64,000 bases of DNA, taken from Verrucomicrobiia bacterium. Its GTDB lineage: Bacteria; Verrucomicrobiota; Verrucomicrobiia; Palsa-1439. Made by a program: the position numbers and the translations under genes. Numbering within the stretch: position 1 is the first letter of the stretch; every line of letters begins with the position of its first letter. Location of the stretch: positions 1 to 64,000 of the forward strand of contig JAJVHY010000013.1 in NCBI GenBank assembly GCA_022072455.1, read 5' to 3'. The notes below the pieces were generated by a model that was given only the letters and a program-made list of their open reading frames with translations, was not told the DNA's origin and made no database searches. This document shows positions 34,232 to 46,605 of this stretch, piece after piece.

Positions 34232-34609
34232 GTGAAAGACATGCCGGATTCGCGCAAAGAACAATTCCGTTTCCGAACGAAAGGCTATGCCTTGGCCGTC
34301 GTTCGTTTTTACTGTGCCCTTCCGAAGTCACGCCCCGAGGTTCAGGTTCTCGGGAAACAACTGCTACGTTCCGGTACCTCGGTCGCCGCCAATTATCGAG
34401 AGGCTTCTCGAGCGCGCAGCAACGCCGAGTTTATTTCCAAGATCGAGACGTGCGCGCAAGAAGCCGACGAAAGCCTCCTCTGGCTGGAACTATTGAACGA
34501 AGGCTGCAATATCCAGTCCGATTCCCTGCAATGGTTGTTGCAGGAAACAAACGAACTCATTGCCATTTTCGTCACCATGGCCAAGAACGCGAAGAACAAT
34601 GCGGAATGA
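34232..34609 (+). CDS. Four-helix-bundle (S23-type) protein, intact copy 3
   Basis: A protein of 125 residues (GTG 34232) or 122 (ATG 34241). Conserved family text: LLRSGTSVAANYREASRARS, ISKIETCAQEADESLLWLELL and a C-terminal helix LLQETNELIAIFVTMAKNAK. Such proteins form pentameric four-helix bundles of unknown cellular role and are named after an intervening sequence in 23S rRNA of Leptospira. It is flanked by CCTGAAACCTGAG upstream and by a long heptanucleotide array downstream. It is probably a cassette unrelated to polysaccharide synthesis. Confidence 0.82.
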   Translation: MKDMPDSRKEQFRFRTKGYALAVVRFYCALPKSRPEVQVLGKQLLRSGTSVAANYREASRARSNAEFISKIETCAQEADESLLWLELLNEGCNIQSDSLQWLLQETNELIAIFVTMAKNAKNNAE

Positions 34610-34783
34610 TGAAACCTGAAACCGGAGTCTAAGCAGCCAAACTCAGCCCTCAGGTTTCAAGTCTCAGCATTCTCCTCCGGTCTCAGGTTTCATCCCTCTC
34701 CGGTCACTCAGGTTTCAGCTTTCCCAACTCAGGTTTCAGGTTTCCCAACTCAGGTTTCAGGTTTCATCCCTCCGCCCTCTTCT
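34608..34783 (+). repeat. Long degenerate heptanucleotide array
   Basis: About 25 tandem 7-nt units. It begins GATGAAA, CCTGAAA, CCGGAGT and becomes TCAGGTT, TCAAGTC, ACTCAGG, TTTCAGG, TTTCCCA, ACTCAGG, TTTCAGG, TTTCATC, CCTCCGC, CCTCTTC, with one change of register in the middle. It fills the whole 174-bp gap and ends one base before the ATG at 34784. Left and right parts are complementary in core (CCTGAAA versus TTTCAGG). Confidence 0.85.
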
Positions 34784-36520
34784 ATGTTAGCCAAGTGCAT
34801 CCTCTTCCGCGCCGCCTGTAGCTTTCATCAAGGCACCGGCCACCTCCGCCGTTGTCTGACGTTGGCGGACGAATTGCGCACGCGGGGCCGTCGCGTTGCC
34901 GTCATCACCGACGCGAACGAATTGGCCGTGCAAGTGGCGCGGATGCACCAGCAATTTGTCACACACGTCGCGCCGGAAGTTTTTCTGCCGGCGGCGTGGT
35001 TGACGAAAATCAACCGCGTCGAAGCCCTCGTCGTGGATTTCCCGCAATCCGAAGAGTCCGCCCTCCGGCAAGGCGACGGACTGGCGACCCTGACCGCTTG
35101 GGATCGGGCCGGGGTGCCGATTGTGTCGCTGGGACACCTCGCCCATCTCTCGCACGCATTTCGCGCCGTGGTGGATCTCTACCCGAGTTCGGGCGTCCAC
35201 GCCGCCAACTACTTTGAAGGCCCGGAATTCCTGATCCTGCGTCCCGAATTCCGCGCCCCCCGCCGGTCGCGCGCGGGGCGCAACCGGGTTCTGATTTCCA
35301 TGGGCGGCACCGACCCGCACGACCTCACCCGCACGGCGCTGGTGGCCGTCCTCCAGTCCAAGTGGACCGGGCCGGTCACCGTCGTCCTCGGCGGCGGCTA
35401 CGCGGCGGAGCGTGAAGTCGAACTCCGCCGGCTCGCCACCGGCCGAAATGTCGAATTCTTCCGCGCCATTGAAAACATGGCGGCCTTGATGCGCCGGTGC
35501 CGACTCGGCATCGTCCCGTTTGGCACCACCGCCTACGAACTCATGAGCCAAGGCGTCGCCTGTCTGGCGGTCAGCCACTACCGCTGGCAGGAGCCGTCCG
35601 CTCGGTTGTTTCATGAACTCGGGGCCTGCCTCTACGTCGGCTGCGCCCAAAACAACCTGACGCCCACAGAAATCGCCAATCAGTTCGACCGACTCGCCAG
35701 CAACCCCACGCGCCTGACGAAACTCGCCCAGACCGGCCAACGCATCGTGGACGGCCGCGGCACCGAACGCGTCGCGTATCTGCTCGAACAATTCACCGTC
35801 GAGACCCGTGACCGGCAGTTGGACCGGCTCTATGTGTTAGCACATCCCGGCGATGAAGTGTTCGGCTGCGGCGGCACCATTCTCCAACAGACCCGGCGCG
35901 GCGACCGCGTCGGCCTCGTCATCCTCGGTGAAGGTCTCGGCGCGCGCAAACAAGACGTGGATACGCAGGGTGCCGTCCTCGCCGAACGCCAAAAACTCAA
36001 ATCCACCCTGCAAACCGTCATCGAAGAACTCGGCATTCGCACCTGGTACTACTATCAGTTTGCCGACAACCGCTTCGATCATCACGACCTGCTCGACCTC
36101 GTCAAGGTGGTCGAATCCGTTGTCCGCCGGCACAACCCGCACACCGTTTACACTCATCATCCCGGCGATCTGAACGTGGATCATCAACGCGCGTTTGCCG
36201 CCGTGATGACCGCCACCCGGCCGCTTGCGGGCCAACCGGTGCGTTCCGTCTTCAGCATCGAAGTCCCATCGTCATCCGACTGGGGCAACAACGCCGCCGA
36301 GAAATATCATCCCAACTGGTTCGAGAACATCGCGCCGGTGCTGGAAAAGAAACTGGCGTTGGCCGCCCGGTATGCCAGCGAAATTCGGCCCGACCCGCAC
36401 CCGCGTTCGCTGGCCGGCCTCCGCGCGCGCGCCGAGCAATGGGGCCGTGTGGCCGGCTTACCGGCCGCCGAGACCTTCGTGCTGCAACGGCACCTGCAAG
36501 ACAACAATCCGCGAACCTAA
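34784..36520 (+). CDS. PseG-like UDP-sugar hydrolase fused to PIG-L-type deacetylase
   Basis: A 578-residue two-domain protein. Residues 1-335 resemble PseG/SpsG GT-B-fold hydrolases, which remove UDP from the nonulosonate precursor: HQGTGHLRRCLTLADEL (catalytic His region), SMGGTDPHDLT and FGTTAYELMSQG. Residues about 345-575 are a PIG-L/LmbE deacetylase with zinc-site motifs HPGDE (354-358), GCGGT and THHPGDLNVDH. The usual HPDDE is HPGDE: Gly356 replaces the expected catalytic-base Asp. The fusion suggests hydrolysis and N-deacetylation of the same intermediate, but the second activity is doubtful. No Shine-Dalgarno sequence; the start follows a heptanucleotide array. Confidence 0.8.
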   Translation: MLAKCILFRAACSFHQGTGHLRRCLTLADELRTRGRRVAVITDANELAVQVARMHQQFVTHVAPEVFLPAAWLTKINRVEALVVDFPQSEESALRQGDGLATLTAWDRAGVPIVSLGHLAHLSHAFRAVVDLYPSSGVHAANYFEGPEFLILRPEFRAPRRSRAGRNRVLISMGGTDPHDLTRTALVAVLQSKWTGPVTVVLGGGYAAEREVELRRLATGRNVEFFRAIENMAALMRRCRLGIVPFGTTAYELMSQGVACLAVSHYRWQEPSARLFHELGACLYVGCAQNNLTPTEIANQFDRLASNPTRLTKLAQTGQRIVDGRGTERVAYLLEQFTVETRDRQLDRLYVLAHPGDEVFGCGGTILQQTRRGDRVGLVILGEGLGARKQDVDTQGAVLAERQKLKSTLQTVIEELGIRTWYYYQFADNRFDHHDLLDLVKVVESVVRRHNPHTVYTHHPGDLNVDHQRAFAAVMTATRPLAGQPVRSVFSIEVPSSSDWGNNAAEKYHPNWFENIAPVLEKKLALAARYASEIRPDPHPRSLAGLRARAEQWGRVAGLPAAETFVLQRHLQDNNPRT

Positions 36521-37587: not shown

Positions 37588-37650
37588 GTAGGGTACGCTA
37601 TTGCGTACCACCCCGCCGACACCCCAACGGTACGCAATAGCGTACCCTAC
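37588..37650. repeat. Palindromic element with perfect 22-bp arms
   Basis: Arms at 37588-37609 and 37629-37650 are exact reverse complements, separated by 19 bases. Each arm also contains its own small hairpin (GGTACGC/GCGTACC). It lies between the NeuB-like gene and the acetyltransferase gene, the first arm starting at the base after the stop codon. Confidence 0.9.
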
Positions 37651-37662
37651 GTACTACGAATA

Positions 37663-38163
37663 ATGGCTCAAATCGAAATCCAACCTCTCACAGCGGCCTC
37701 CGTTCCAGCAGCGGCGGCATTTTACAGCGCGCGGATGGACGACACGTTCAGCCAGACATTTCCACCGGCGGCCATCGTGAAATACCGGGAGAATTTTAAT
37801 CTGGAACGGCTGACCGCTTACGTTACCGCCGGGGATCGCGAGTTGCTTGCCGCAAGAGTGGACGAACAGATTGCCGGGATCATGTTCGGCAGTCCGCTCA
37901 ACGGCGGCGTGGCCTCTGTGGTGTGGATGGCCGTATCGCCACAGTTTCGCGGCCACGGAATCGGCCGGCAACTGATGGAAGAGACGTTCCGCCGGTACCG
38001 GCAGCGCGGAGCGCACAAGGTCGTTCTCTACACGGAAACCGATTCCGGGAAGGCGTTCTACGAGGCCGTCGGGATGACGCTCGAGGGAACGCACCCCCAA
38101 CATTGGTGGGGTCTCAAGCATTACTGTTTGGGCCGAATCCTGGAGTCGTCTGCCGGTGCATAA
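37663..38163 (+). CDS. GNAT-family N-acetyltransferase
   Basis: A 166-residue GNAT protein. The acetyl-CoA binding motif A is VVWMAVSPQFRGHGIGRQLMEETF (R-G-H-G-I-G), followed by motif B around FYEAVGM. In this cluster it probably acetylates an amino group of the nonulosonate precursor, in the place taken by PseH or SpsD in other bacteria; that role is inferred from position. The 3' end overlaps the next gene by eight bases. Confidence 0.82.
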   Translation: MAQIEIQPLTAASVPAAAAFYSARMDDTFSQTFPPAAIVKYRENFNLERLTAYVTAGDRELLAARVDEQIAGIMFGSPLNGGVASVVWMAVSPQFRGHGIGRQLMEETFRRYRQRGAHKVVLYTETDSGKAFYEAVGMTLEGTHPQHWWGLKHYCLGRILESSAGA

Positions 38164-40048
38164 GACTGTCGCCATCGTCCAAGCCCGGATGGGTTCGACC
38201 CGTCTGCCGGGCAAGATGCTGCGGCGACTGGCCGGGCGACCGCTGATTGATCATGTTCTGGCGCGACTGACGGCAAGCATCCAGCCCAAGGGGCCGCTCG
38301 ATGCCATCGTGTTGGCTACCTCAACGGCACCCGATAACGATCCGCTCGTTGACCATGTCGCCAAGCGTTGGCCAGAAATTGTCATCGTGCGCGGGTCCGA
38401 AGACGACGTGCTTGCGCGCTTCGTGACGGCACTCCGACAAATTGGCGCCACCCAGTTTGTGCGCGCAACCGGGGATTGCCCGCTCATCAATACCGACGCG
38501 ATGGCACAGATGTTAACGGCATTGGAAACGACCGGCGCCGATGTGATCAATTACCAGCCCGGCTACGAATACGTGGACAAGGGCTTGGAAGCTGTCACCG
38601 CCGCCGCGTTGTTGCGGGTGGCCGAGGATCCACAACTGACGGCCCGCGACCGCGAACACGTCACCAGCCTGCTTTACCGGCATCCCGACCGGTATCGCGT
38701 GGGCTATATCGCCAGCGACCCGGTGTTGCGGCGCGGCGATATCCGGTTGACGGTGGACACGGCGGACGATTTGCGGTTTTTTGAGACGTTGCTGGCGTTG
38801 TTGCCGGGCGATCCCCAGCACGCGCGGTTACCGGATGTGGTTAAAGTCTTGGACCAACATCCGGAAGTCATTGCCATCAATGCCAGCAGTGGCCGGAAGA
38901 GTACCCGGCACGAACGGGCGCGGCTGGGTTACCGGTGCGACGGCGGCGCGGCGTTGGGATTAGGGCACGTCGTGGGCTGTCTGCGACTGGCCAAACTCCT
39001 CGCGCGTGAACTCGGTTGGGGATCGGAATTTGTCGTCCGCGACGATCCCGCGACGGTGGCGTTGGTGAAACAAGCCGGGTTTGCCATGGAAGTGTTGTCG
39101 GCGGACACGCCACCGGAACGCGACATCGCGCGATTGATCCACAAGGCCGAAGAATCAGATTGGGCCGGCGTGGTGGTGAATTTCTGCAAGGATGACCTCG
39201 AACGCTACAGCGAATCGTTTGGCGGATTGAAGACCGCGCGGGTGCCGCTCATTTTCATGGATAATCCTTTGCCGCCCTCGTACCGGCTCGGCGATTTATT
39301 GCTGAACGCACTCCCCCACCCGGACTACGCCGGGTACGATCCGCAAGCGCACCCGCGCTGTTACGATGGCCTGGAGTATTTCATCTTGGAGGACGTATTT
39401 AGCTCTAGTCAGCGTGGGAGCGGCGTCCCCGCCGCGACCGGCACAGAATTCACCTCCTGTCGCGGCGGGGACGCCGCTCCAACAACAAGGAAGGTGGCTG
39501 AAACCGTTCAGCGAATTCTCGTCGCGATGGGCGGCGGTGATCTGGCGAATCTGACCGGCCTGGTCATTCAAGGTTTGGCAGCAGCGCAGTTTACCGGCGA
39601 AGTGGACGTGGTGCTGGGCGCGGCGTGTCCGCATCGCGCAACGGTGGAGAAGTTGCTGACGAGCACCGGCCTGCGCGGCGCGGTTGCCGTGAATGTGACC
39701 GACATGCCGGCGCGGATCCGGCGGGCCGACTTGGGATTCTCGGCGCTGGGGTTGACGACGTATGAAATGGCCGGGAGCGGATTGCCGGTGGGAATCATTG
39801 CCGGCTCGGAATTGAATGCCGGCGTGGCCCGGCAGTATGCGGAGAAGTACCGGGCGGCGGATTATTTGGGTCACGGCGCGCAGGTGCAGCCGCGCGACGT
39901 GGCCGCATGGTTGCGGCGGATGGAAGCGGATGTTGACCGCCGGCGAGCAATGAGTGCCGCCGGGAAACATATCGGCGCGCGGGTGGCGGAGATTCCCGGG
40001 TTGGTTGAAGCAGTGATCGGCCAAGCGGTCCAGTGTGGAGTTCGCTGA
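38156..40048 (+). CDS. SpsF-like cytidylyltransferase fused to PseG/SpsG-like domain, with palindrome-encoded insertion
   Basis: A 630-residue fusion (GTG start). Residues 1-240 are an SpsF-type nucleotidyltransferase: AIVQARMGSTRLPGKML, FVRATGDCPLI and RLTVDTADDLRFF. Residues about 255-625 resemble PseG/SpsG: GLGHVVGCLRLAKLL, then VAMGGGDLANLTG and GLTTYEMAGSGLP. In Bacillus spore polysaccharide loci SpsF and SpsG are separate. Residues about 421-442 are encoded by a perfect palindrome and disturb the expected strand before RILVAMGG, yet the frame is intact. The C-terminus and stop lie within another hairpin element. Confidence 0.82.
   Translation: MHKTVAIVQARMGSTRLPGKMLRRLAGRPLIDHVLARLTASIQPKGPLDAIVLATSTAPDNDPLVDHVAKRWPEIVIVRGSEDDVLARFVTALRQIGATQFVRATGDCPLINTDAMAQMLTALETTGADVINYQPGYEYVDKGLEAVTAAALLRVAEDPQLTARDREHVTSLLYRHPDRYRVGYIASDPVLRRGDIRLTVDTADDLRFFETLLALLPGDPQHARLPDVVKVLDQHPEVIAINASSGRKSTRHERARLGYRCDGGAALGLGHVVGCLRLAKLLARELGWGSEFVVRDDPATVALVKQAGFAMEVLSADTPPERDIARLIHKAEESDWAGVVVNFCKDDLERYSESFGGLKTARVPLIFMDNPLPPSYRLGDLLLNALPHPDYAGYDPQAHPRCYDGLEYFILEDVFSSSQRGSGVPAATGTEFTSCRGGDAAPTTRKVAETVQRILVAMGGGDLANLTGLVIQGLAAAQFTGEVDVVLGAACPHRATVEKLLTSTGLRGAVAVNVTDMPARIRRADLGFSALGLTTYEMAGSGLPVGIIAGSELNAGVARQYAEKYRAADYLGHGAQVQPRDVAAWLRRMEADVDRRRAMSAAGKHIGARVAEIPGLVEAVIGQAVQCGVR
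39417..39480. repeat. Palindromic element with perfect 22-bp arms inside the spsF-spsG fusion
   Basis: Arms at 39417-39438 and 39459-39480 are exact reverse complements around a 20-base loop. Very GC-rich. The element is read through in-frame, adding about 22-30 residues. Confidence 0.92.
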
Positions 40049-46515: not shown

Positions 46516-46540
46516 ACATACCCAAGAGAGTTCTCCTTCT

Positions 46541-46595
46541 GTAGCCGCACCCTTTAGGGTGCGTTAGAGATGCGCAGGCTGAAGCCTGCGGCTAC
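46541..46595. repeat. Double-hairpin intergenic element
   Basis: Complementary ends GTAGCCGCA (46541-46549) and TGCGGCTAC (46587-46595) enclose stems GCACCC/GGGTGC (46547-46562) and CGCAGGC/GCCTGCG (46573-46590). It fills most of the gap before the next gene, whose ATG at 46606 is therefore preferred over upstream in-frame starts. Confidence 0.8.
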
Positions 46596-46605
46596 ATCCC
46601 ACACC

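Follow-up and report, generated by a model that had tools for sequence, protein, structure and literature searches.

A palindromic REP dimer read in frame within the PseG-like part of an spsF-spsG fusion in a Verrucomicrobiia bacterium

The long palindrome inside an spsF-spsG fusion gene of this Verrucomicrobiia genome consists of two inverted REP elements joined as a dimer (39414-39483), a REPIN/BIME-like piece of non-autonomous palindromic DNA, and it very probably inserted, in frame, into the linker of the PseG-like half of the gene. In-frame REP dimers, GTGG-tagged families and inserts in uvrA have been known since 2013, and the spsG case adds an example. Positions are those of the window, the whole 64-kb stretch of DNA that was analyzed, in which the following features are distinguished:

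38156..40048, plus strand: spsF-spsG fusion gene, 630 residues, open through the insert (open reading frame, domain matches)
39413..39484, plus strand: 24 inserted codons, RGSGVPAATGTEFTSCRGGDAAPT (linker comparison, pLDDT < 50)
39414..39483, no strand: head-to-head, REPIN-like REP dimer of the GTGG-tagged family, tags outermost (arms and fold)
39414..39441, plus strand: left REP (sequence, hairpin fold)
39414-39417, plus strand: left REP tag GTGG (sequence)
39420-39425 and 39430-39435, plus strand: left REP stem GCGGCG, loop TCCC and stem CGCCGC (fold)
39442..39455, no strand: spacer separating the two REPs (differs among copies)
39456..39483, minus strand: right REP (tag GTTG, not GTGG)
37588..37650, no strand: second REP dimer, GTAG-tagged (GTAG-GGTACGC-TATT-GCGTACC), intergenic (sequence, pattern search)

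The palindrome and its host gene

The arms at 39417-39438 and 39459-39480, described as perfect in the earlier note, are indeed 22-nt reverse complements with zero mismatches; they form the center of a longer repeat (39414-39441 and 39456-39483) with 28-nt arms that are 93% matched, with two mismatches. The tag of the right REP has one mismatch to GTGG, which is why the perfect arm ends where it does. Perfect inverted repeats of at least 14 nt, no more than 100 nt apart, occur at two sites in the window, this one and 37588-37650, and the longest perfect arm in 20 order-1 Markov shuffles of the window was 17 nt. Folding of the palindrome as DNA gave a z of -9.0, with none of 200 shuffles folding equally well. 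REPs of the GTAG superfamily carry a tetranucleotide tag (GTAG or a variant) 5' of a hairpin whose stem is mostly 6-9 bp; the same arrangement is found here, as GTGG followed by GA and GCGGCG/TCCC/CGCCGC, and the two inverse REPs lie a short distance apart, as in a REPIN doublet.

The reading frame is without a stop across the palindrome, as had been claimed, and it encodes a cytidylyltransferase domain (residues 5-181) and a PseG-like GT-B match (residues 259-549). The linker of the PseG-like half was measured from the conserved F of the LRxEF motif to the ILV strand preceding GG. Of 11 class homologues, 8 have a linker of 15 residues and the other three have 14, 19, and 27; the target has 37, which leaves 13 once the 24 REP codons are subtracted, and the 24 codons fall inside the 22-30 residues originally proposed. 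A 12-residue longer linker in G037 (L254) shows a weak stem at best and was left out of the count. A paralogue of the SpsG half within the window (34784-36520), which joins a PseG-like domain to a PIG-L deacetylase domain, has an 11-residue linker at the same place. A search of the same family turned up no close orthologue of the fusion, and the empty site is read from homologues with identities of about 22-29%. Had distant orthologues contained homologous residues here, the segment would have been marked as an ancestral part of the protein; this was looked for, and the insertion reading was not refuted.

An AlphaFold model built from 13 sequences has a mean pLDDT of 84.6. Its sole segment with pLDDT below 50, residues 164-186, is the REP peptide, which sits ahead of the strand at 198-202 and between two confidently predicted domains, with high confidence on either flank; the modeled fold resembles PseG (3hbn) and MurG-type GT-B proteins. 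The suggestion that the insert forms an exposed loop is thereby supported, in the form of a disordered linker in the model. Because the linker is 15 residues in most homologues and the REP peptide is of low pLDDT, the segment is read as an insertion and not as an ancestral part of the protein. The 24-residue peptide is in all likelihood a disordered loop that the protein tolerates, and the DNA element itself is putatively selfish. The near-perfect arms would fit a recent insertion, as the earlier note had it.

Two REP families in one genome

Searching the genome (4.8 Mb, 36 contigs) for other copies revealed a dispersed family with differing flanks. The 22-nt core returned 36 matches with up to three mismatches, against none for a reversed control; copies are often paired head to head, with spacers that vary in sequence and length, and their flanks are unrelated. 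A whole-element search of 56 relatives returned a match in G002 only. Matches to the pattern in other phyla were tallied by open frame, and many of these are Thiohalocapsa arrays that may be unrelated repeats.

In-frame dimers were found in genes for a double UvrA (three sites), a CusA/CzcA-type pump, BioF/Kbl, a DinG-like helicase, DnaX, an aldolase-SDR fusion and a double GNAT protein, and in a RAYT stretch fused behind BioF; LacZ and Ogt carry single GTGG-family REPs. Another dimer lies in a 610-residue ORF that has no family match and shows coding-like codon-position GC. At least 11 of the 16 GTGG dimer loci are inside genes (12 counting the 610-residue ORF), while two of the remainder are intergenic (C21, C14) and two lie at gene ends (C33, C3). 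The family thus departs from the mostly extragenic habit of REPs. Several of these sister insertions can be compared with orthologues or solved structures: the bioF copy corresponds to about 23-25 residues missing from seven same-family orthologues, the insert at uvrA site 3 is absent in the G006 and G008 orthologues, and the alignment of CusA to a solved pump, 4k0e, stops at query residue 415 and resumes at 454, a break that falls at the REP copy. The earlier idea of an insertion is supported by the dispersed family, by class homologues that do not have the element, and by the empty orthologous sites of the sister inserts. Genes for DNA replication and repair among the carriers of this family are uvrA, dinG, dnaX, and ogt, in line with an enrichment suggested in 2013. 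The DinG-like ORF also contains, beside its GTGG dimer, a second, different in-frame palindrome with a strong fold (residues 304-330, peptide GTGVSPVEPPTNHGRDARATT).

The GTGG consensus is free of stops in all six frames. Among the 17 copies listed, 16 read VGAASPPRP or GSGVPAAT on the left and/or a GGDAAPT-like peptide on the right, the exception being a degenerate dimer in the RAYT; the arginine-rich frame WERRPRRD is used by none of the 17. Avoidance of one frame across 12 copies has a chance probability of about 0.8%. The frame bias agrees with survival of harmless peptides. The possibility that the change from GTAG to GTGG opened a forbidden frame was considered and is not supported, given that the frame so opened, WERRPRRD, is the one that the listed copies do not use.

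The dimer at 37588-37650, also with perfect 22-nt arms, directly follows the stop codon of a neuB-like gene. It had been described as the same architecture with a different sequence; this stands, with the qualification that it represents a separate, intergenic REP family and that neither element is a copy of the other. Strict DNA comparison found no further copies of this dimer; the degenerate pattern GTAG-GGTRCGC-TATT-GCGYACC gave 28 genome matches and none in the control. None of 13 GTAG-family dimers is inside a plausible gene, in keeping with the mostly extragenic rule, and at 7 of the 13, including the one at the C9 RAYT, the coordinates make the tag's TAG the stop of the neighboring ORF. 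The difference in intragenic dimers between the families (11 of 16 vs. 0 of 13; Fisher P = 1.3e-4) is indicative only, since classes were assigned with the data already in view and one gene holds three of the copies. Elsewhere in the window, a pair of unlike REP-like hairpins (GTAGCCGCACCCTTTAGGGTGCG and GTAGCCGCAGGCTTCAGCCTGCG) occurs near a two-ORF boundary (46540-46596), and an inverted-repeat cluster around CCTGAAACCTGAAACC (34593-34783) adjoins a gene for a 23S rRNA-intervening-sequence-type protein (34232-34609).

Mobilization and alternative explanations

Five PF01797 genes were found in the genome. One, on contig C9, is a RAYT (NF047646 at 182.1 bits, cutoff 80) with GTAG-family dimers on both flanks; a stretch fused behind bioF on contig C12 also matches NF047646 (107.8 bits, cutoff 80) and has one GTGG-family dimer inside, which interrupts the RAYT gene itself, and a REP at its 3' end. 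Each family is in this way associated with a RAYT that carries or is flanked by the same REP, C12 for GTGG and C9 for GTAG, as expected of a REPIN/REPtron pair. RAYTs act on such REPs, and in one system the change from GTAG to GTGG shifts cleavage to CC (PMC8266576). From its adjacency, the C12 RAYT would be the putative mover of the GTGG family. In the C12 locus (97471-99387, minus strand), the BioF/Kbl frame continues into the RAYT stretch, and both parts contain REP dimers; none of the same-family BioF orthologues that were examined extends into such a stretch.

The spsG dimer lies where the two Rossmann-like domains of the PseG-like half are linked. These elements may have been mobilized, in the form of single-stranded hairpins, by a RAYT (TnpA-REP), a REP-associated tyrosine transposase. 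Most coding insertions would have been purged, and the survivors would be those that keep the frame, encode Gly/Ala/Pro-rich peptides, and lie in surface linkers.

Other explanations were weighed against this. A young, not yet decayed pseudogene, inactivated by the insertion, is improbable: a 24-residue insert near the nucleotide-sugar site could impair activity, and the second PseG-like gene at 34784-36520 would fit such a loss, but neither side of the insert has a stop or frameshift, codon-position GC is coding-like both upstream (0.67/0.44/0.73) and downstream (0.71/0.51/0.73), the AlphaFold model remains confident around the insert, and the likely housekeeping genes dnaX and uvrA bear the same family. 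The very stable fold raises the further prospect that the hairpin is kept for its structure, as a regulatory RNA element (an attenuator, or an RNase or translation-pausing site), and an effect of gene-end REPs on mRNA has been suggested (Di Nocera et al., PMC3733652). However, the same element occurs at arbitrary positions in functionally unrelated genes, and other class members have a linker of 14-27 residues without it; we consider a regulatory role highly unlikely.

Two readings that dispense with a mobile repeat have almost no probability. An ancestral, functional SpsG loop whose codons are palindromic by chance would account for the open frame and the nearby conserved GGGD motif, yet most homologues have a 15-residue linker and the sequence is almost identical to a dispersed repeat. 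Template switching can yield perfect arms, as would be needed for a local inverted duplication, gene conversion, or assembly artefact, but about 20 places, spread over many contigs, share these arms, with differing flanks and spacers. Insertion of a REP dimer remains the preferred reading.

Relation to known elements and the UvrA linker

In-frame REP dimers encoding 20-30 residues were reported in 2013 (Di Nocera et al., PMC3733652), and intragenic REPs are an accepted class in that study despite the mostly extragenic rule; a verrucomicrobium, Opitutus terrae, has the highest count of GTAG-type in-frame dimers; its GTAG-20 family is mostly GTGG-tagged; both of its uvrA genes carry two REP inserts each; and many REP-decorated genes are DNA repair genes. 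The present dimers resemble the GTAG-superfamily dimers of O. terrae in their in-frame insertion, GTGG tag, and uvrA targets, and differ in the genome and in the targets spsG, cusA, bioF, dinG, dnaX, lacZ, and ogt. No such pairing of a stop-free intragenic GTGG family with a gene-end GTAG family in a single genome was found in the text of PMC3733652. REPINs and BIMEs with RAYT (TnpA-REP) are alike in having inverted REPs with outer tags and a variable spacer, and in this genome, too, RAYT genes carry or are flanked by the REPs; however, REPINs and BIMEs are mostly extragenic, whereas the GTGG family is mostly coding and small, with about 16 dimers found. The Rickettsia palindromic elements (RPE) are likewise palindromic repeats lying in frame in many protein genes, but their tag is CGTC and not GTGG, and the sequences are unrelated, so that the present elements fall outside the CGTC-tagged group. 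CGTC repeats apparently have no dedicated transposase (PMC3733652).

REP inserts are a known but little-studied route from selfish DNA to protein. The spsG insert is a clear-cut example of mobile non-coding DNA that has become protein, being 72 nt long with homologues that do not have it, and its sister insertions have orthologous empty sites at the nucleotide level. With two families of differing stop content and niche in one genome, the question of why some REPs enter genes becomes testable. We tentatively propose, as a possibility that is more doubtful than not, that the GTGG family is gene-adapted (stop-free, with only Gly/Ala/Pro-rich frames used) while the GTAG family occupies gene ends, often supplying a TAG stop, and that some linkers, above all that of UvrA, are refilled across genera by different REP dimers, selfish hairpins being the usual source of the UvrA linker.

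Less expected than the spsG insert is a single UvrA linker with several unlike REP-like palindromes. The double UvrA of this genome (G000; 1761 residues, C16:117465-122747) has three in-frame REP dimers. Among the 10 closest genomes whose linker was scored, in-frame palindromes occur at the mid-UvrA junction of 7 (G000, G006, G008, G036, G013, G028, and G052) and were not found in G004, G010, and G020. These palindromes (loci L290-L298) are REP-like and of several different sequences across related genera, and in more distant genomes no UvrA-linker palindrome was clearly above shuffles. The junction may have been hit repeatedly, or an old insert may have been overwritten by resident REP families; either would fit. 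The recurrent linker bears on why DNA repair genes so often carry REPs, a question posed in 2013. The nearest published parallel is Xanthomonas recB, in which different REPs occupy about the same site (PMC3733652). At UvrA site 1, comparison of G008 (GTAGGAGC...GCTCCTAC) with this genome (GTGGGAGC...ACTCCCAC) shows that the tag and its partner changed together, and that the peptide is largely conserved.
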